A stretch of 41,772 nucleotides of DNA from a virus. Of this stretch, positions 1,196 through 41,772 are shown one piece after another; within the stretch, counting starts at the first letter, position 1; each line of letters opens with the position of its first letter. The position numbers and the translations under genes are program-made. The stretch is from positions 1 through 41,772 of the IMG/VR virus record IMGVR_UViG_3300046170_000147, one strand, 5' to 3'. A model generated the notes under the pieces. The model was given only the letters and a program-made list of their open reading frames with translations, searched no databases and was not told where the DNA came from.

Positions 1196-2881
1196 TTACG
1201 TCCAAAGGATCGCTTTATCACGTTTACGTTTATAGAAGCTATCAGTAAACTTTGTTAACTCTTCTTGTAGTAGTTCTTGTTTTCTATCGTACATATTCTT
1301 GTTAACATCAGCAGCCATTTGTTCTACCCAATAAGCAACAGCAATAGCTAACGCATCCAGACGGTCATCATGAGCCAAGCTACCACGTTCTCTTGTTATC
1401 CGTGATAGTTGATAGAACAACATATACCTAGCTTGAGACTCTATAGGATACGTTAACGCAGACTGGTAGTCGTTAGAGATAACTTTAGGATCAACAATAA
1501 GACGATGACTATTAAGTACAGGTTCAAGTGTATCAACAATCCTTAGTTCTTTTTGTTTACTACTACGTACTTCTTCTATCGTCACAGGATATTCATTACG
1601 AAACAACGGTTTAATCAGTTCCATAAACATACCGTCACCAAAGTTAGACTCTATAACGATCTTGTTAACTTTGTTATGTTTAGCAATGGAGACGAGACGT
1701 TTTAATGTTACCTCGTCGTACCCTCCTTTAATACCACCAGCATCAGGAACAAACAACTGACTGTTAAGCATCTTGACTACAGCGTAAGCCGTTTCGTCTT
1801 TACCACGACCAGAAGGATCAATAGACATCACAGAACCACTGTACGGTATTAGTTCTCCTACAAGACTACTAGGACGCTTGTAACGGTCTCCTGCCAGTCC
1901 TACATTAGGTAGTGTTCTATCTGCTTTCTCAGGGTCACTTGACCACATGATCTTTTCAGGGGCAGTATCAACGTCAACGTCGTGAATGATAAGGTCGTTA
2001 ATCTTTAGTGGGTAACGGTCACGATCGCTTAGTTTAGGGTTTAACATGAACTGCAACGCAAACCCGGTACGACCGTACGACAGCTGACGTTCTTCTAAGT
2101 CCATATCACTGAAGCGTAAGGGTTCTGTAGAAGTACCAGTACTCTCAGGAGTTATGTTATCCCGTATAAAGGGTGCAAGGGCATTGCCATAGTTGTTGTC
2201 AGCTTCTTCCTCCTTTGGGTACTGTGCAGGCCATACACGCTGCTCGTAGCCCCTCTCTGCCAGTTTAGTGTACAGACTGTCTTCGCATTGGGGTGTACCG
2301 AGAAATACAATCCTAGAGCTTTCTAGGGGCTTTATAATAGAATCAAACTCTTTTACTGCTTCGTCCAGTTTATCCCGTAGTCCTTGTGTTTGTGAGTTAG
2401 ACGGTACTTCTACGTCGTCAGCTACGATTATATCAGCACGGGAACCAGTCAGCTGGGATGTTACACCTAACGACTTAACGGAGGGTGCATGAGAAGCAGG
2501 AGCACCGCTAACATCAAAAGCTATCTTACTGAATCGTTGGTTCTCTGATGGTTGTAGATGTTGTAGTGCAGGTATGTCCTGTATCAGACGTAACGTAAAG
2601 GTAGAGAAGTCATCCGATCTATTCTTACTGGCAGATACAACAAGTATGTTTTTTGTTTGGTCTAGTAGTAACTGATGAACGACAAATGCTGAGGTTATCC
2701 AGCTCTTACCACAACCACGAAATGCTTGAATAACGGAACGACGAGGTCCATTTTGCAAGTATAAAGCCATGTCGTACTGTAACGGAGTAGGATCAGGCAG
2801 GTTAAGGTGTCGCCAAACAAGACACAGAAAGTTTCTAAAGTCTCGTAGTTGTGATGGTATCTCTTGGTGTTTCTTCTTCAT
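1196..2881 (-). CDS. terL: Terminase large subunit (T7 gp19-like)
   Basis: ATP-driven DNA packaging motor and nuclease, 561 residues (T7 gp19 is 586). The Walker A motif AFRGCGKSWIT lies near residues 53-63. The Walker B region ADIIVADDVEVPSNSQ follows the T7 pattern closely. The C-terminal nuclease has acidic clusters in IDPSGRGKDETAYAV, VIESNFGDG and HDDRLDALAIAVAYW. The gene follows the small terminase, with a terminator hairpin between them, and is the last large gene of the late region. Its 3' part is repeated at 40885-41772 with changes such as DVDVDT versus DVDVDQ and EKIMW versus EKIVW. Confidence 0.97.
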   Translation of the reverse strand: MKKKHQEIPSQLRDFRNFLCLVWRHLNLPDPTPLQYDMALYLQNGPRRSVIQAFRGCGKSWITSAFVVHQLLLDQTKNILVVSASKNRSDDFSTFTLRLIQDIPALQHLQPSENQRFSKIAFDVSGAPASHAPSVKSLGVTSQLTGSRADIIVADDVEVPSNSQTQGLRDKLDEAVKEFDSIIKPLESSRIVFLGTPQCEDSLYTKLAERGYEQRVWPAQYPKEEEADNNYGNALAPFIRDNITPESTGTSTEPLRFSDMDLEERQLSYGRTGFALQFMLNPKLSDRDRYPLKINDLIIHDVDVDTAPEKIMWSSDPEKADRTLPNVGLAGDRYKRPSSLVGELIPYSGSVMSIDPSGRGKDETAYAVVKMLNSQLFVPDAGGIKGGYDEVTLKRLVSIAKHNKVNKIVIESNFGDGMFMELIKPLFRNEYPVTIEEVRSSKQKELRIVDTLEPVLNSHRLIVDPKVISNDYQSALTYPIESQARYMLFYQLSRITRERGSLAHDDRLDALAIAVAYWVEQMAADVNKNMYDRKQELLQEELTKFTDSFYKRKRDKAILWT

Positions 2882-3421: not shown

Positions 3422-4603
3422 TTAAGCCATTGCAGCAGTAAAGTCTGCCAATGAACCAAGATTGTTACCGTCTCCAAGAACAACGTCGTTAGCTTTAACG
3501 TCGATCAACTCAGCACTTCCGTCGTCTCCACTGATGTCAGTAGAAGCAGAAGTAGCGGATGTTTTATAGAACGCAAACTTGTCGATACCTTCGTCGTATA
3601 CAGCAGCGATGTTTCCACCGTCACCAGTACCACGTTCAATGATAAGACCAGCGTCGTTCGAGTTGTTAGTTGAACCAGCAGCACCGTCGTTGATCAAAAG
3701 AATAGAGTCTTTGATTTCGGAGTTAGTGGTTTGTACGGAAGTAGTTGTACCGTTAACAGTTAAATTACCGCTAAGTACAAGGTTAGTTCCGCTTACGTCA
3801 CCAGTGAAGGCAGCACCAGCAAGATTAGCTTTGGCAACGTCAAGAGCAGATTCAGCAGCACGAGCAGTTGAAGCTTCGGAATCGATGTTCGATTGAAGAG
3901 TCGTGTCAGCAGATGCTCTAGCAGTAGCTTCACCACTAACAGCAGCGATGCGAGCAGTTTCTTCAGCGTCGATATTGGACTGTAAAGTCGTATCAGCAGA
4001 AGCTCTGGCAGTTGCCTCGTCATTGATGTTTGTTTGAAGGGTCGAGTCAGCGGATTGACGGGCAGTCTCTTCAGCATCAATGTTGCTTTGGAGAGTTGAG
4101 TCAGCACTGGCACGAGAAGAAGCTTCACTATCAATGTTAGACTGAAGGGTACTGTCGGCAGATGCACGAGTACTTGCTTCAGAAGAGATAGCGTCAGCGT
4201 TAGTTTTGATCTGTGCATCGAGAGCTTCGTCAGCTCCAACCAATGTACTTACAGAAGTAATGTAGTTGGTAGAGGAGTTAGCGGAGTACGATCCACCTGC
4301 ACCAAGACCAGCACCACTTTGAGTAGCGTCTAGTTCGGATTGGATAGCGGAGTCAGCGGATGCTCTGCTTGATGCTTCTGTGTCAATGTTACCTTGTAAG
4401 GTAGAATCAGCAGACGCACGGCTAGAAGCTTCGCTGTCGATGTTAGATTGCAGGGTAGAGTCAGCACTTGCACGACTGGAGGCTTCCGAATCAATGTTCG
4501 TTTGTAATGTAGCCTCAGCAGCTTCTGCACGTGCTTTCTCAACTGCAATAGCACTTTTGGTCGATTGACCGATTTGATAGAATATAGATGATGTATCTGG
4601 CAT
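3422..4603 (-). CDS. Repeat-rich coiled-coil tail fibre protein
   Basis: A 393-residue low-complexity protein. Residues 1-20 carry a YQIGQSTKSAI anchor-like motif shared with two nearby small genes. Residues 32-97 and about 134-252 hold nine or so 18-residue repeats of the type TLQSNIDSEASSRASADS, typical of trimeric fibre shafts. Residues after about 255 resemble beta-rich phage structural domains (GNLTVNGTTTSVQTTNSE). It ends the receptor-binding cassette. I infer a virion fibre or appendage. The receptor is unknown. Confidence 0.75.
   Translation of the reverse strand: MPDTSSIFYQIGQSTKSAIAVEKARAEAAEATLQTNIDSEASSRASADSTLQSNIDSEASSRASADSTLQGNIDTEASSRASADSAIQSELDATQSGAGLGAGGSYSANSSTNYITSVSTLVGADEALDAQIKTNADAISSEASTRASADSTLQSNIDSEASSRASADSTLQSNIDAEETARQSADSTLQTNINDEATARASADTTLQSNIDAEETARIAAVSGEATARASADTTLQSNIDSEASTARAAESALDVAKANLAGAAFTGDVSGTNLVLSGNLTVNGTTTSVQTTNSEIKDSILLINDGAAGSTNNSNDAGLIIERGTGDGGNIAAVYDEGIDKFAFYKTSATSASTDISGDDGSAELIDVKANDVVLGDGNNLGSLADFTAAMA
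3848..4204 (-). repeat. 54-bp coding repeats, second fibre block
   Basis: These bases encode residues 134-252 of the fibre, with 18-residue units based on TLQSNID-x-E-x-x-x-R-x-S-A-D-S. One unit is extended by 11 residues (TARIAAVSGEA). Units are degenerate at the DNA level, which fits an old expansion under selection. Confidence 0.85.
4312..4510 (-). repeat. 54-bp coding repeats, first fibre block
   Basis: These bases encode residues 32-97 of the fibre: three 18-residue units (TLQTNID, TLQSNID, TLQGNID types) and a partial fourth (AIQSELD). A non-repeat insert of about 50 residues, glycine- and serine-rich at its start, separates this block from the second. Confidence 0.85.
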
Positions 4604-4630
4604 ATTAGTATTTATTATTGATGGTTAAAA

Positions 4631-4774
4631 TTAAGCAGTACCGTCGGAAACAATCTCTGTCCATTCAGACCCTGTCCAAACGATAATCTTATTAGTGTCC
4701 GTCTCAAAGTAAGCCTCACCAGCAGCTGGCGAAGCGGGACGGGTGGATGATGTGACTGTGTTTAAAGTAGCCAT
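4631..4774 (-). CDS. Tiny tail-module protein (47 aa)
   Basis: A 47-residue reading frame with ATG at 4774, ending in TAA at 4631, in the gap between the fibre and the next gene. It reads ...RPASPAAGEAYFETDTNKI then IVWTGSEWTEI. This is the common phage-fibre pattern in which a 'DTDTNKL.V..GS.W' hairpin is presented. Two neighbouring proteins and one portal-proximal protein carry related modules. It probably is a small virion component or a domain that is a separate gene here. Confidence 0.65.
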   Translation of the reverse strand: MATLNTVTSSTRPASPAAGEAYFETDTNKIIVWTGSEWTEIVSDGTA

Positions 4775-4777
4775 GTC

Positions 4778-5014
4778 TTATTCTTCCTCCTCTGGTTGTG
4801 TCCAAGCTTCCCCAGCCAACACGGTCAACATTGCCGAGTGACTAAGGGTATCTTTTCCGTATAGGCATCGTGGTTTAGCTCCTTCGTATTTAACAAAGGT
4901 TTCATCACCTGCCACGTTATATCTTAGTGTATCAACTGATGTTTCAAGTACTTCGTCAAAGTTAACGGTACTTACTTCATCAGCGTTTAGAATTACATAT
5001 TGTCTAGTGCTCAT
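4778..5014 (-). CDS. Hypothetical protein in tail cassette (78 aa)
   Basis: A 78-residue acidic protein starting MSTRQYVILNADEVSTVNF and ending PEEEE. It lies between the 47-residue module gene (4-base gap) and the LamG-like gene (6-base gap), so it is probably co-transcribed. The central part (ETFVKYEGAKPRCLYG) looks beta-rich. I do not recognise the family. Position suggests a structural or chaperone role in the tail appendage. Confidence 0.65.
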   Translation of the reverse strand: MSTRQYVILNADEVSTVNFDEVLETSVDTLRYNVAGDETFVKYEGAKPRCLYGKDTLSHSAMLTVLAGEAWTQPEEEE

Positions 5015-5019
5015 AATTA

Positions 5020-5844
5020 TTAAGAGGGTACGTCAGTTGAGAAGGTAGGACCGTTAACAAGCGTACCGTCGTTTCCTCCGCTGCCTTGGTCAGTGATTGT
5101 CGTGCCTGTTCCTGAGTCGTTGTCTCCCATGCGATACCACCCAACAGGCGAGTAAGAGGATATGTCAGCAGGTACTCCACTGTTGTAGATAGATGATATA
5201 TCGGAAGAAGATAAAGCAGTATTGAACACTGCACACTCATCCATTACACCTTCCGCATTTTGGGCGGCATTACCCTTTCCTATCCAAGTATTACTTCCAT
5301 TGTAACTTAGTGCGTTGCTTTGAGCTACAGAGTTAGCTTCAACGCCATCCACGTAAAGTCTCAAATAACTTTGATCATAAGTCATCGCTACATGATGCCA
5401 GTCAGTCAATGTGTATGTTGAACTACTCTCTATGTTCGAGTAGCCCCACGGTCCACTTATCATACACTCGAATTTATTAGTACTTCTATATGTTAAACGA
5501 AAGGCTCCGAACATAGTATTGGACTGATACATTAAAAAGTTGTAACCTCCAAGTGTGCCACTCACTTTAAACCAACACATAAGCGTTATATTTGCAGGTG
5601 CTAAATCTGAAGAGGTTCCTAAATCGATATAGTCGTCCGTACCGTCAAATTCTACGCTATACTGGTTACTAAAACTAGGACTAGCTTCATTAGCAAACGT
5701 TCTCCAAGACCCGCTGTCGTATACAACAATAGCACCTGCATCGGTACTACCCGCAGCTTTCAAATATAACTCACCATTCTTGGCAAGTCCGTTAGTTACC
5801 AGCGATGATTGCTCGCTGTCGTTAATTACTGTAATATCGCTCAT
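5020..5844 (-). CDS. LamG/concanavalin-like carbohydrate-binding tail protein
   Basis: About 274 residues from ATG at 5844, which follows the previous stop by four bases. An upstream in-frame ATG at 5886 would overlap the preceding gene. The N-terminal part holds a GELYLKAAG...IVVYDSGSWRTF module. Then SVEFDGTDDYIDLG, WFKVSGT, DWHHVAMTYD, LRLYVDGVE, DECAVFNTALSSSDI and YNSG follow in the order expected of LamG-like jelly-roll domains. The family binds glycans, so I infer a receptor-binding or capsule-binding virion protein. Confidence 0.85.
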   Translation of the reverse strand: MSDITVINDSEQSSLVTNGLAKNGELYLKAAGSTDAGAIVVYDSGSWRTFANEASPSFSNQYSVEFDGTDDYIDLGTSSDLAPANITLMCWFKVSGTLGGYNFLMYQSNTMFGAFRLTYRSTNKFECMISGPWGYSNIESSSTYTLTDWHHVAMTYDQSYLRLYVDGVEANSVAQSNALSYNGSNTWIGKGNAAQNAEGVMDECAVFNTALSSSDISSIYNSGVPADISSYSPVGWYRMGDNDSGTGTTITDQGSGGNDGTLVNGPTFSTDVPS

Positions 5845-5848
5845 GTGT

Positions 5849-6106
5849 TTAGCTGTTGTTATAGACCTGCCAGTTACTACCGTCAAATACGTAAAGCTTA
5901 TAAGTATCGCTTCCGTACATGATAGTACCTGTGCTGTCGCTGGTTCTTGCTGTTATGTTTGCTGCCGTGTCTACGCTGGGTGCAACGGTATCTTCAGGGA
6001 AGCCGAGAATAGACTTTAAGAAGTCCGTCACAGCGTCCGTTTTATCTACCTTGTCATCCAACTTCGTCTTAACGGTCTGTCCGATTTGTTGAAGTATGTT
6101 AGCCAT
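5849..6106 (-). CDS. Small tail-module protein with YQxGQ-type anchor (85 aa)
   Basis: An 85-residue protein. The start, MANILQQIGQTVKTKL, matches the start of the 393-residue fibre and of the next small gene. The second half reads ANITARTSDSTGTIMYGSD then TYKLYVFDGSNWQVY, a beta-hairpin display module repeated in other proteins of this phage. It lies 4 bases upstream of the LamG-like gene. I infer a virion protein made of an anchor plus a displayed hairpin. The exact place in the tail is unknown. Confidence 0.75.
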   Translation of the reverse strand: MANILQQIGQTVKTKLDDKVDKTDAVTDFLKSILGFPEDTVAPSVDTAANITARTSDSTGTIMYGSDTYKLYVFDGSNWQVYNNS

Positions 6107-6148
6107 TAGTGATTATATTTTTATGTTAGTGATTATTGATTGTCAAAA

Positions 6149-6343
6149 CTATTGAGCAGCTTGCCATCCTGAGTCTGTAAATACATACAATTTATTAGTG
6201 TCCGTGGCATACGCCATCGTTCCTAAGTCGTCGTCAGTCCTTGCTTGAATGTTGCTCTCGGTGTCTAATATAGCCTTGCTGGTGCTAGTAAGAGATATTA
6301 ATAAGTTCCTGACGCTCTGTCCCATTTGATACCATACGCTCAT
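6149..6343 (-). CDS. Small tail-module protein, paralogue (64 aa)
   Basis: A 64-residue protein starting MSVWYQMGQSVRNLL. Its second half, SNIQARTDDDLGTMAYATD then TNKLYVFTDSGWQ, aligns along its length with the 85-residue neighbour, minus about 20 residues in the linker. The two look like a tandem duplication that diverged. Both probably occupy equivalent or competing sites on the tail. Confidence 0.72.
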   Translation of the reverse strand: MSVWYQMGQSVRNLLISLTSTSKAILDTESNIQARTDDDLGTMAYATDTNKLYVFTDSGWQAAQ

Positions 6344-6387
6344 ATTTTATTTTCATTAATTGGTTAAATCCGACACTTGTTAGTGAA

Positions 6388-6624
6388 TTACGGATCACCT
6401 GTCAAGCCTTCAAGAAATTCTGCGTGGTCACCCACTTCTTCTTCACGTGCATCTAGGAAGTAAGGTAGTTCGTTCCAAGCAGTCGTTCCGTCTCCTATCT
6501 TAATACGATTACGGTCAGTATCTAACTCGATAGCAACTTCACCTTCCAGCAGTACTGGGTTCTCTTCCCGCCACTCGGCATAAGTACCACGTCTTAATTG
6601 TATACGTTTTGTAAAACTAGGCAT
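6388..6624 (-). CDS. Mtd_N-like (major tropism determinant N-terminal) domain protein
   Basis: A 78-residue protein. It reads KRIQLRRGTYAEWREENP, then LLEGEVAIELDTDRNRIKIG, then DGTTAWNELPYF. This matches the N-terminal domain seen in major tropism determinants and many phage fibres (RRGT.AEW...NP.L..GE...DT...KIGDG.TAW). Here it is almost the whole protein. Its end overlaps the start of the next ORF by a few bases. It is probably a fibre-base or trimerising element. Confidence 0.85.
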   Translation of the reverse strand: MPSFTKRIQLRRGTYAEWREENPVLLEGEVAIELDTDRNRIKIGDGTTAWNELPYFLDAREEEVGDHAEFLEGLTGDP

Positions 6625-7496: not shown

Positions 7497-9241
7497 TTAA
7501 GCGTTATCTACTTCCGGTGAAACTTGACTTATCTGTATAGCTTTAGTCCCGTCAAATCTGAATAATATTGAGACTTGGTGACCATCTGACGGTGTAGTTA
7601 TCGTTGATGATTGAACCTCAAAATTACCACTAAAAAATGTAGGGTTCGCACTTACAGCTCCACCGCTTGTATTTTTAATAGTTAAATAAAACAACTGACC
7701 AGCTTCCCAATTCTGAGGTCTACTCTTATCTAAATTAAAACCGTAAGCCGTGTCACTTGTTACCTCACATATAAAGTTACCTGATGTATTAGGACTTAAA
7801 TAAGCACCGTCTAATTCAGCATAGAGAGCTTGCGTGAGGTCTATATACCAATTAGTAGCATTTAACAGTATGCCTTGTACGCTCGACCAATCGCTGTAAT
7901 TTATACCTATTCCGTTTATCTTAGAATTTGAATCGTTATCAAACACATATTGCAAACCTTCAAGCCAGTTGGATTCAAACCTAGAAACATTGGAATTAAT
8001 TAAAGAACATAATGCTGTATCAGTTACAGTAGTAACACCTGTAATAATATTGTTGGAGAAGCTTACATTATGGCAGTTCTCTAACTTGAACATCCTTTGC
8101 GATGATAAGCTAGTAGTAAATTCATCAAATTCGCAATTTTCAACACGCAGACTTCTAATAGCATCAGTAATAACAGAATTAGCTGTGCCTGTTCCTGAAC
8201 CTACACCTGTAGCCACAAACTCTGTACCTATATTATTGTCAGCTGCACCTATTGAAGTGAAATCAGTAGTTCCAACGGTTACTATTTTATAAGTTTTATC
8301 AATAACAAAATCACCAGCGGTTAGTAAAGGTTTGTCAGTAGTATCTACAACAAGTAAACCATCACGACTGATAAATGTACATCTTTCAAAACTTACCGCT
8401 TCTATTCTTTCATCTTTGATGTGTAATACAGTCCACGGATTTGTTCCTGTACTGCCTGAAGAATTGCTACCTATGAACGTACAACGAGTAAACTCAATAG
8501 GTGTTATTCCACCCGATGAGCCTTGTCCGTCAATATCTATAAATTTATCCGCAGTCCTACTACTACAATGTACTTCATTAAAACTGCTATAACCTAACCT
8601 GTTACCGTTTGAACGAATAACGGATCGGGTAAACAAACCAGCACCACTGAAAAACACATTATTCATTACGAGGTCGATGTGACCTGAATTAAGCTCTAAA
8701 AAGTCAGTAGCGCTACCGTTAGTTTCAACACCTACATACGCAAAAGTGTGCTGTGCGGTCGACTACCCTAAACATAGGATCAGCACCACCCGTCCACACT
8801 AGAGTAGAAGCAAGCCTTGTTGAACCTGTTCTTCTACCTTTAAGCTGGCTACCCATTATTCCAACACCCGTTCTAGTAAGCTCTAAAGTCGTATTAAACG
8901 CAAAAGCACCCTTACCAAGTTCTCCTACATTTTTAGCATCAGCATTTAAGTAGGCAATCCACGCCTGTAGTGCAGCTGGTGTCGTCAGTTGTTCCATTGC
9001 CAACCGCTCCAAAATCATACGGAGTAAGTACTTGACCAAACCGATCAGCAAGACTCCTAGCTGTCGTTGAACCTGTAGCTGTTACCTCTGCATTAGACAT
9101 ACCAACACCACCAGCAGTAGCCCCATCGTGCAACACTAATGCGTTCTTATCGGTGTCTACTGTCAGTTCACCTTGTGCTCCTGTAAAGCTGCCATGTTGA
9201 GCTGTTGTTCCTCTTCGTAATTGTACTTGTATGTTACTCAT
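7497..9241 (-). CDS. Tailspike with pectate-lyase-like fold, frameshifted
   Basis: About 580 residues after two corrections. The N-terminal QVQLRRGTTAQHGSF...GELTVDTDKN is a fibre-base domain like Mtd_N. Then comes YDFGAVGNGTTDDTAALQAW, the classic start of pectate-lyase-type beta-helix tailspikes. The frame breaks at GG 8978-8979 (DDT to AALQAW) and at AAAA 8742-8745 (TAHF to AYVGVE). The remainder (8666-7497) is a beta-rich helix with many Asn and Ser turns and a jelly-roll-like tail. It probably degrades or binds surface polysaccharide. Catalytic residues cannot be assigned. Confidence 0.85.
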
Positions 9242-9253
9242 AGTTATTAAGTT

Positions 9254-10225
9254 TTATAGTATTGCTCCGTAATCGACGTAGTCGTCTGCTCCTGCTACAG
9301 CTACAGAGCCATAGTCTAAAGTGTTAGATACATGTAGGAATAAGCGTATCTGTATCCTCTCTCAATAATAACAATAGAAGCACTAGCTGCTGGAGCTGAG
9401 TCAAAGCGTAGTACGTTCTGTGCACCTACTATCGTGTAGTCATCAGGTGATTGTACTGCTCCGTTTACTGTTACCAAGTAAGATTGAGAGTCGCTGTGGT
9501 TAGGTGTGAAAGTTAATTCAAAGTCCTGTATCAGACCCTGTTTGTGTAAAACTAGAAAAGCCCGGAGGAGCACCAGTACCTAGTGTTAACTGATCAGCTA
9601 CTCCAGTGACGTATTGTTTATTAACAACATCCCGTACACCTAATGGGTCTGCCATTTCGGTAATACGATTGCCATTCATATCAACATTAGATGACAAGTT
9701 ACTACCGTCAAAGTGGTCGAGTCCTAAACCGTCGATATAAGCACGGTCTGCAAAGTCTTGAGAGTCTACATAGTTCTTTGTAGCAGCGTCTTGTGCGTCC
9801 GTTGGATCACCTAGGTCTGTTATCTTAGCACCGTCAGCGTCGTAATGATCCGTACCTTTCTTACTAAGTTGTTCACCAGCTGCACCTTCCGCAGCTTCTT
9901 GTGATAGATAATAGTTGTGAAGATACGAACGATCTAACTCCGATTCTGTCAGTACTGAACCATTAACAAAGTCTACCAGTGGATCAACGGTGGAACTGTT
10001 ACGAACAATCCGTACTGCGTTACCTACGGCTACACTGCCTGATGCTATTACAATTTTGTTAGGTGATGTAGAGATCGTGTAAGCAGAAGTAGCTAACAGA
10101 GAACCTTGTACATATACGTCTATTAGAGCCACTCCTTCGTTGTCCGATAGATATGGAAAGGAGAAAGAAAAGCCGTTAGCAACTTGATCGGATGTCGCTG
10201 TGTAGTCTTGGTAGGTGTTAGCCAT
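9254..10225 (-). CDS. Tail fibre, T7 gp17 N-terminal-like, frameshifted
   Basis: About 323 residues after corrections. The start (MANTYQDYTATSDQVANGFS, later VRIVRNSSTVDPLVDFVNGS) matches the T7 gp17 N-terminal domain that binds the tail hub. The middle holds fibre repeats (ITDLGDPTDAQDAATKNYVD; ITEMADPLGVRDVVNKQYV). The frame breaks at CCC 9536-9538. A second break at the CTCTCTC run 9356-9362 would give an end reading NTLDYGSVAVAGADDY. It is much shorter than T7 gp17 (553), so it is probably an adaptor onto which the following spike proteins attach. Confidence 0.85.
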
Positions 10226-26582: not shown

Positions 26583-26831
26583 TTAAGTTCCTGTGTAGTA
26601 TTGCCAATCAGTTCCGTCGTATACATACAATCGTACAACATCAGATGCCATATAAATTGTACCGACTGGATCGCCTGACCTAGCTTCTATGTTTGCTTGT
26701 GTGTCGTAGTAAGCTTGGAATGTAGCGTCAAACAAATCCAGCGGAAAGCTTGTACCAAACTGCGGAGCCAAGAACTCACTGCTAGTTTGTACCTCAGAAG
26801 GAGGTGGTATGTTTACCGCAACAAGAGACAT
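26583..26831 (-). CDS. Small protein with tail-type hairpin module (82 aa)
   Basis: 82 residues. The N-terminal half is unrelated to the tail genes, but the second half reads ANIEARSGDPVGTIYMASD then VVRLYVYDGTDWQYY. This aligns with the small tail proteins at 5849-6106 and 6149-6343. It sits 3 bases upstream of the portal gene, far from the tail cassette. It may be a head- or neck-attached decoration. The assignment is inferred from module sharing. Confidence 0.65.
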   Translation of the reverse strand: MSLVAVNIPPPSEVQTSSEFLAPQFGTSFPLDLFDATFQAYYDTQANIEARSGDPVGTIYMASDVVRLYVYDGTDWQYYTGT

Positions 26832-27148
26832 TAAAGAGAAGAGGTAGTGCCTGTAGCGTAGACGCTGTAAGTTCCGTCAGTACGACTTGACACTGAAGCT
26901 CTGATCTTTTCGTAGTGTCCGTACTCATCTCTTATCATAATATTACCAGAGGATGTTACAGCTCTGCTATCAACTGTTCTCCAAGCTCCACCGATATATG
27001 CTTCAACAGCAACGGTAGCACCTGTGCTTACTGATTCAGACTCAATAACAAATGTCCATCCTTTAGAACGCTCGGCTCCAACAGCACTGCCAGCACCGTT
27101 AGCAACCACACCGTCTAATAACGTAAGTTTATCTAATCCTATAATCAT
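26831..27148 (-). CDS. Beta-rich hypothetical structural protein (105 aa)
   Basis: 105 residues, rich in Ser, Thr, Val and Gly (ESVSTGATVAVEAYIGGAWR, DEYGHYEKIRASVSSRTDGT). It ends YATGTTSSL. The composition suggests an immunoglobulin-like or jelly-roll beta sandwich. It overlaps its neighbours by a start-stop contact (ATGA at 27148) and by one base. Position before the portal suggests a virion or capsid-decoration role. Confidence 0.6.
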   Translation of the reverse strand: MIIGLDKLTLLDGVVANGAGSAVGAERSKGWTFVIESESVSTGATVAVEAYIGGAWRTVDSRAVTSSGNIMIRDEYGHYEKIRASVSSRTDGTYSVYATGTTSSL

Positions 27149-40884: not shown

Positions 40885-41772
40885 TTACGTCCAAAGGATC
40901 GCTTTATCACGTTTACGTTTATAGAAGCTATCAGTAAACTTTGTTAACTCTTCTTGTAGTAGTTCTTGTTTTCTATCGTACATATTCTTGTTAACATCAG
41001 CAGCCATTTGTTCTACCCAATAAGCAACAGCAATAGCTAACGCATCCAGACGGTCATCATGAGCCAAGCTACCACGTTCTCTTGTTATCCGTGATAGTTG
41101 ATAGAACAACATATACCTAGCTTGAGACTCTATAGGATACGTTAACGCAGACTGGTAGTCGTTAGAGATAACTTTAGGATCAACAATAAGACGATGACTA
41201 TTAAGTACAGGTTCAAGTGTATCAACAATCCTTAGTTCTTTTTGTTTACTACTACGTACTTCTTCTATCGTCACAGGATATTCATTACGAAACAACGGTT
41301 TAATCAGTTCCATAAACATACCGTCACCAAAGTTAGACTCTATAACGATCTTGTTAACTTTGTTATGTTTAGCAATGGAGACGAGACGTTTTAATGTTAC
41401 CTCGTCGTACCCTCCTTTAATACCACCCGCATCAGGAACAAACAACTGACTGTTAAGCATCTTGACTACAGCGTAAGCCGTTTCGTCTTTACCACGACCA
41501 GAAGGATCAATAGACATCACAGAACCACTGTACGGTATTAGTTCTCCTACAAGACTACTAGGACGCTTGTAACGGTCTCCTGCCAGTCCTACATTAGGTA
41601 GTGTTCTATCTGCTTTCTCAGGGTCTGACGACCACACGATCTTTTCAGGAGCTTGATCAACGTCAACGTCGTGAATGATAAGGTCGTTAATCTTTAATGG
41701 ATAACGGTCACGATCACTCAGCTTAGGGTTTAACATGAACTGCAACGCAAACCCGGTACGACCGTACGACAG
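40885..41772 (-). CDS. terL: Terminase large subunit, 3' part only (cut by window end)
   Basis: The frame is open to the window edge at 41772. The first full codons read LSYGRTGFALQFMLNPKLSD. It covers about the last 295 residues, with the nuclease domain (IDPSGRGKDETAYAV, HDDRLDALAIAV). It differs from the full gene by a few residues (DVDVDQ, EKIVW) and by several silent changes in its first 160 bases. The ATPase part is missing only because the window stops. Confidence 0.93.
   Translation of the reverse strand: MSYGRTGFALQFMLNPKLSDRDRYPLKINDLIIHDVDVDQAPEKIVWSSDPEKADRTLPNVGLAGDRYKRPSSLVGELIPYSGSVMSIDPSGRGKDETAYAVVKMLNSQLFVPDAGGIKGGYDEVTLKRLVSIAKHNKVNKIVIESNFGDGMFMELIKPLFRNEYPVTIEEVRSSKQKELRIVDTLEPVLNSHRLIVDPKVISNDYQSALTYPIESQARYMLFYQLSRITRERGSLAHDDRLDALAIAVAYWVEQMAADVNKNMYDRKQELLQEELTKFTDSFYKRKRDKAILWT

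Follow-up and report, generated by a model that had tools for sequence, protein, structure and literature searches.

Short N-terminal peptides that attach receptor-binding proteins (RBPs) were previously known from a few cultured phages. In K1-5 and SP6 the peptides are MAKLTKP and MIQRLGSSLVK, and in the KP34 phages an N-terminal peptide, MALxxLV, has been proposed for attachment (PMC6872550). A second relevant precedent is the Alteromonas phages A5, V22 and P24, in which tail modules are shared between unrelated marine phages (PMC10579305). The locus described here lies in a 41,772-nucleotide (nt) stretch of DNA from an uncultured marine phage, IMG/VR record IMGVR_UViG_3300046170_000147, positions 1 to 41,772 (the window). 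Three of its tail genes, which encode a 64-amino-acid (aa) protein (S), an 85-aa protein (M) and a 393-aa fibre (F), share a 14-residue block at the N-terminus.

The locus resembles the conserved-peptide ("anchor-branched") RBP systems of K1-5/K1E/SP6, G7C, KP32 and KP34 (Latka et al. 2019, PMC6872550) in two respects: i) a short conserved peptide, modelled in the known systems as the link to another tail protein, stands at the extreme N-terminus of at least two tail proteins with different bodies; and ii) a T7-tail-type base is present in clade A, the phage group to which the window belongs. It differs in that the known peptides are carried by tailspikes and dock to an adapter or a gp10-like domain, whereas here a single block is carried by three co-conserved parts, two of which are only 64-85 aa and have no adhesin body. 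By analogy, the block would work like the K1-5, SP6 and KP34 peptides in where it stands and in that different bodies share it; we do not claim membership on the basis of sequence. As in A5, V22 and P24, syntenic tail genes are common to phages with otherwise unrelated virion genes, but the genes in that case are a fibre and a DUF4376 chaperone, and that study was not concerned with an N-terminal block common to several proteins. Here, three parts that co-exist bear a single block; two of these parts are tiny, and the set was found in phages of two virion types.

The shared N-terminal block

The three genes lie on the minus strand, with the positions and sizes given by an earlier sequence-only reading of the window:

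6149..6343, minus strand: 64-aa protein S; block, residues 2-15 at 6299-6340; beta-module, residues 24-62 at 6158-6274
5849..6106, minus strand: 85-aa protein M; block, residues 3-16 at 6059-6100; beta-module, residues 44-84 at 5855-5977
3422..4603, minus strand: 393-aa fibre F; block, residues 6-19 at 4547-4588; helical rod, residues 7-263

The N-termini are firm because each open reading frame (ORF) opens at the first possible start codon past a stop. The block reads SVWYQMGQSVRNLL in S, NILQQIGQTVKTKL in M and SIFYQIGQSTKSAI in F. Its core is hydrophobic-x-x-x-[ILM]-G-x-x-[VLT], and the fuller pattern is [SN]-[ILV]-hydrophobic-x-x-[ILM]-G-x-[ASTV]-[VLT]-[KR]. The sequence-only reading had described the motif as YQxGQ. 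The shared N-terminus is real, but the five-residue literal is too narrow for a likeness that spans 14 residues: YQ[IM]GQ occurs in two of the three proteins, the 85-aa protein has QQIGQ, and across relatives the Y and both Q vary (YKIGQ, QQIGT, AEIGT, EALGT). The same reading's description of the bodies as unrelated or partly related holds. S and M are related through a C-terminal beta-module (54% identity over 39 columns; hhalign 97.9%, E 5e-13), and the likeness of the fibre to either is confined to the block, for which the profile-profile E values, 0.002 and 0.028, are weak. The C-terminal domain of the fibre contains a TVNGTTTSVQTTNSEI block.

Among the 45 proteins of the window, the 12-residue N-terminal matches of S, M and F form a mutual triangle with BLOSUM62 scores of 39, 31 and 25. 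A triangle this good was found in none of 40 shuffles; a single-pair score of 40 was reached by one shuffle. In 1.09 Mb of clade A loci there are 203 matches to the pattern [YQFHW]Q[IMLVFA]GQ[STAN], of which 202 lie close to a protein start, and the distinct protein starts listed for it all fall in the S, M and F families. Contig counts are not independent, descent being shared within families, and the between-family test is the meaningful one. In this test each family was left out in turn, and a profile made from the remaining families was scored against 1,121 other N-termini from these loci. All left-out members tested outscored the null N-termini, save the 68-aa S form of clade B (one of the second-group clades described below), above which one null N-terminus ranked.

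The block is under protein-level purifying selection, with synonymous sites free, so the likeness does not stem from a conserved DNA signal. In S the ratio of nonsynonymous to synonymous polymorphism (pN/pS) is 0.004 in the first 16 codons vs 0.164 in the remainder; in M it is 0.143 in the N-terminal part vs 0.229 in the remainder; and in the clade A fibre it is 0.111. A search for a common DNA element upstream of the three starts found just a loose A/C-rich leader, with two exact matches. An A/C-rich gap of 27-44 nt precedes each of S, M and F (6344-6387, 6107-6148 and 4604-4630, minus strand), unlike the genes between M and F, which are packed with 3-5 nt spacing.

The cassette in clade A

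The terminase of the window is nearest to those of marine Autographiviridae (54-64% identity; MedDCM-OCT-S45-C18, Roseobacter CRP-361), and its portal (Head-tail_con type), capsid (Gp10A-like), tube and nozzle are T7-like (PF12236, PF21703, PF17212, PF25675). IMG/VR scans found many contigs with the same locus. S, M and F are present in all 44 distinct complete clade A cassettes, in constant order and on a constant strand. Variants of the block include FYKIGQ in the fibre of one sub-clade and QQIGT in many M proteins. Phages near by terminase, CRP-361, HTVC109P and MedDCM-S42-C7, have tail genes without the motif. Among 50,697 phage records, the 64-aa protein had zero matches and the 85-aa protein no meaningful match; in bacterial genomes no relative of the 64-aa family was found.

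Between M and F lie three further genes:

5020..5844, minus strand: laminin-G adhesin, 274 aa from the ATG at 5844 (Pfam PF13385, E 1.6e-26)
4778..5014, minus strand: 78-aa partner of the laminin-G adhesin, duplicated along with the adhesin in some relatives
4631..4774, minus strand: 47-aa protein, the adhesin N-terminal module standing alone, from comparison across relatives

The laminin-G adhesins have a variable body and a conserved N-terminus of their own, ~54 aa long, which lacks the block; the 78-aa gene comes next. A homologue of the 78-aa protein directly follows a triple laminin-G protein in cyanophage S-SKS1. The 78-aa partner gave no Pfam match, and no profile search aimed at the DUF4376 chaperone was made. 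In 4 of the 44 cassettes a second laminin-G body extends the 47-aa gene, and a second 78-aa gene follows that fusion in all three fully read loci (L009, L062, L069).

The cassette in a second phage group

A DNA pattern for the N-terminal NI-x-QQIG, combined with an alignment scan, reached a second group of phages, clades B and C. In the members tested the portal is of the SU10 type (PF23899, E 7e-33) and the capsid matches Phage_capsid_3 (E 4.5e-10), which makes theirs another virion type. Among cultured phage records the clade B 171-aa protein, portal and capsid were likewise unmatched. Homologues of S, M and F are present in 12/12 complete clade B/C cassettes. The M homologue is 171 aa long and starts MANIL[QS]QIG, MANILSSLG or MPSILEALG; the fibre starts MSNIL[SQ][QS]IG[AST][AS]VK[GT]K; and the S homologue, 64-68 aa, starts MSL[AVT]A[END]IGTAVR or MS[ND]LASLIGSSV, its start being disturbed in one locus (L158). 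The relatives of the window carry the motif at protein starts, as the sequence-only reading had proposed to check, and do so in a group with a different virion as well.

One locus with an SU10-type portal, L309, bridges the families. Its S homologue begins MNILEQIGTDVKNKI and its fibre MANILSQIGTAVATKV; the start of this 64-aa homologue, NILEQIGTDVKNKI, resembles that of its own genome's fibre, and the S block is therefore tied directly to the M and F blocks. Covariation of the block within genomes was not seen: Q/S at one position does not follow, M and F carrying NILQQIG and NILSQIG in mixed combinations. In clade A the S gene is on the same strand as its neighbours and several genes earlier than the fibre; in clades B/C (L241, L250, L254, L257) it is inverted relative to its neighbours and stands just before the fibre.

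The clade B/C tail locus also holds laminin-G proteins and the 78-aa family, the adhesin of the window having its homologue in clade C. When the window and three clade A loci (L009, L111, L062) were compared by BLASTP with eight clade B/C loci, the sole gene-level homologues were S, M, the laminin-G adhesin, the 78-aa protein, the 47-aa protein and the fibre, a six-gene tail cassette. Beyond these there were matches to ORFs lying antisense or out of frame and to the 82-aa module protein beside the portal (see below), and one weak N-terminal match. Because no other gene-level homologues were found, the cassette recurs without its virion, in two phage types whose portals and capsids are unrelated.

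S, M and F are co-existing parts, because the trio is complete in 44/44 clade A and 12/12 clade B/C cassettes; the proposal that they are alternative appendages is not supported by these counts.

Predicted structure of M and the fibre

The AlphaFold2 model of M (mean predicted local distance difference test, pLDDT, 75) has a helix at residues 4-19, a second helix at 25-34 and the beta-module. The model of the fibre (pLDDT 77; predicted template modelling score, pTM, 0.32) has helices at 7-95 and 108-263 and a poorly modelled tip. In these models the block begins a helix in both proteins. Over 44 residues, the M beta-module superimposes at 1.6-1.8 A on the N-domain of Mtd and on the trimerization domain of collagen XV, with Z 5.0-5.6, below the tool's clear level, and Foldseek gave E above 0.3. 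The predicted fold of the M C-terminal module is thus like two known ones (1yu4, 3n3f), that of the N-terminal domain of Mtd and that of the trimerization domain of collagen XV/XVIII, a resemblance that is suggestive only; the sequences differ (11-20% identity), and the module here is C-terminal and ends the protein. A Foldseek search of BFVD found similar beta-modules in many phage proteins, none with E below 0.001, and a sequence search of the PDB gave just repeated-ubiquitin artefacts for one query and no match for another.

A probable docking helix on parts of one appendage

As the best explanation of these observations we favour, with moderate confidence, that three trimeric parts of a single portable tail appendage dock by an N-terminal helix common to all of them. 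The 14-residue helix would be the common docking, or assembly, element. S and M would be minimal units, consisting of the docking helix and a C-terminal beta-module with a predicted trimerization-like fold, and in the fibre the same helix would continue directly as a long helical rod, which a tip domain follows. The three proteins would be made together and placed at equivalent or adjacent sites, S and M probably serving as short plugs or collars beside the fibre. Of the sequence-only reading, which had proposed a common docking peptide, the docking or assembly function remains the best interpretation; competition between alternative appendages and the fibre base as dock are not supported. We infer that the peptide binds a site, and likewise which site it is and where S, M and F sit in the virion.

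Several points weigh against this explanation. The presence of S, M and F in the virion is deduced from gene context. No common partner was found, and at BLASTP sensitivity there was no other shared virion protein. The N-terminus of the clade B/C 171-aa proteins is not extra constrained (pN/pS 0.455 vs 0.352 in the remainder). The structure models are monomers, with pTM 0.32-0.47. A likeness to the K1-5 undecapeptide MIQRLGSSLVK, good by eye, was rejected, the position-specific scoring matrix giving it a score of -1.2, as high as which were 220 of 1,096 null N-termini. The block may also merely start a trimer.

The last point leads to the main rival, in which the block just opens a helical bundle of three chains, or is left over from a common ancestor of the three genes; it would make each protein trimerise and bind nothing else. 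AlphaFold2 sets the block at the start of continuous helices, its hydrophobic spacing is heptad-like, and S and M are paralogous over the C-terminal module, so part of the likeness may be descent. However, S and M already have a trimerization-like module and would not need a second trimerizer, and the central Gly, unusual for the core of a coiled coil, is kept in all families. The block of S, moreover, is far more constrained than the rest of its gene, and the block is retained between fibres with diverged rods; a mere trimer start, or descent alone, is thus somewhat doubtful. A membrane-active, amphipathic helix used during infection would suit a short, N-terminal peptide, and the hydrophobic moment is above 0.3 in five of eight block forms (moderate amphipathicity). 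Yet the amphipathicity seldom exceeds that of shuffles (P 0.04-0.76), the net charge is only -1 to +1, and the block is fused directly to the helical fibre rod; this candidate was rejected as unsupported by shuffles and charge and is very improbable. Chance likeness would be suggested by the shortness of the shared string and the weak E values for the block alone, but it is contradicted by the leave-one-family-out result, the conservation in two phage groups and the bridging form in L309, and is scarcely credible.

The dock named by the sequence-only reading, at which alternative appendages would compete for one tail site, was the T7-type fibre base:

9254..10225, minus strand: T7-type fibre base (PF03906, E 3.8e-24), frame-broken (ORFs 9518-10225 and 9316-9573)

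In relatives the intact base is 321-322 aa (322 aa in L132). A beta-helix tailspike at 7497-9241 (minus strand) is also broken by a frameshift and is intact in L033 (2819-4747, 642 aa). The frameshifts in the two genes are probably sequencing indels. The dock of K1-5 and SP6 is a T7-tail-type adapter (PMC6872550), and several clade A relatives have adapter-like bases of 263-386 aa with a possible docking domain at the end. Clade A bases are, however, of three kinds: short and adapter-like with a possible docking domain, long fibres with such a domain, and long fibres without it. A VxVDGxxxxPxxDYT domain, a candidate for a T4 gp10-like docking domain, is visible in several and not seen in others, and S, M and F stay regardless; an hmmsearch of the bases with K1-5/SP6 docking-domain seeds gave weak matches only. 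Furthermore, unlike in the conserved-peptide RBP systems, the T7-tail domain was not found in 15 clade B/C records of up to 68.9 kb, which may be incomplete; one run of this search was positive in all six clade A records and the other matched no genome. Since the base varies within clade A and was not found in clades B/C, and the motif genes stay and are never alternatives, the fibre base is unlikely to be the general partner, and competition for a site on it is improbable.

The docking helix could instead serve an attachment standard that the cassette carries itself, the S, M and F helices binding a cassette-made site such as a mixed bundle of their own helices. This is a speculative variant that we consider rather unlikely. 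If true, the whole appendage could be transferred among phages whose portals and capsids are unrelated, with no conserved dock on the recipient virion. The cassette poses the question how a single appendage is able to fit onto different phages, and it suggests a testable rule, that a shared N-terminus can be used to find tail parts among the unannotated small genes of uncultured marine phages.

Other features of the window

A further protein with the S/M module adjoins the portal:

26583..26831, minus strand: 82-aa protein with the same C-terminal beta-module and without the N-terminal block

In clades B/C a gene of 200-350 aa neighbouring the portal ends in a module similar to that of the 82-aa protein. 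A 105-108 aa protein lies beside the portal at 26831-27148 of the window; in L033 its look-alike (9183-9509) adjoins the fibre. The motif QLRRGT (Mtd_N, PF18454) opens both a 78-aa protein at 6388-6624 and the tailspike at 8939-9241 (minus strand); thus, shared N-terminal modules recur in this locus. At the end of the window, positions 40885-41745 repeat the C-terminal 286 codons of the terminase at 1196-2056 (minus strand) with two amino-acid differences. They represent either a variant whose end overlaps or a long terminal repeat with nearly identical copies.

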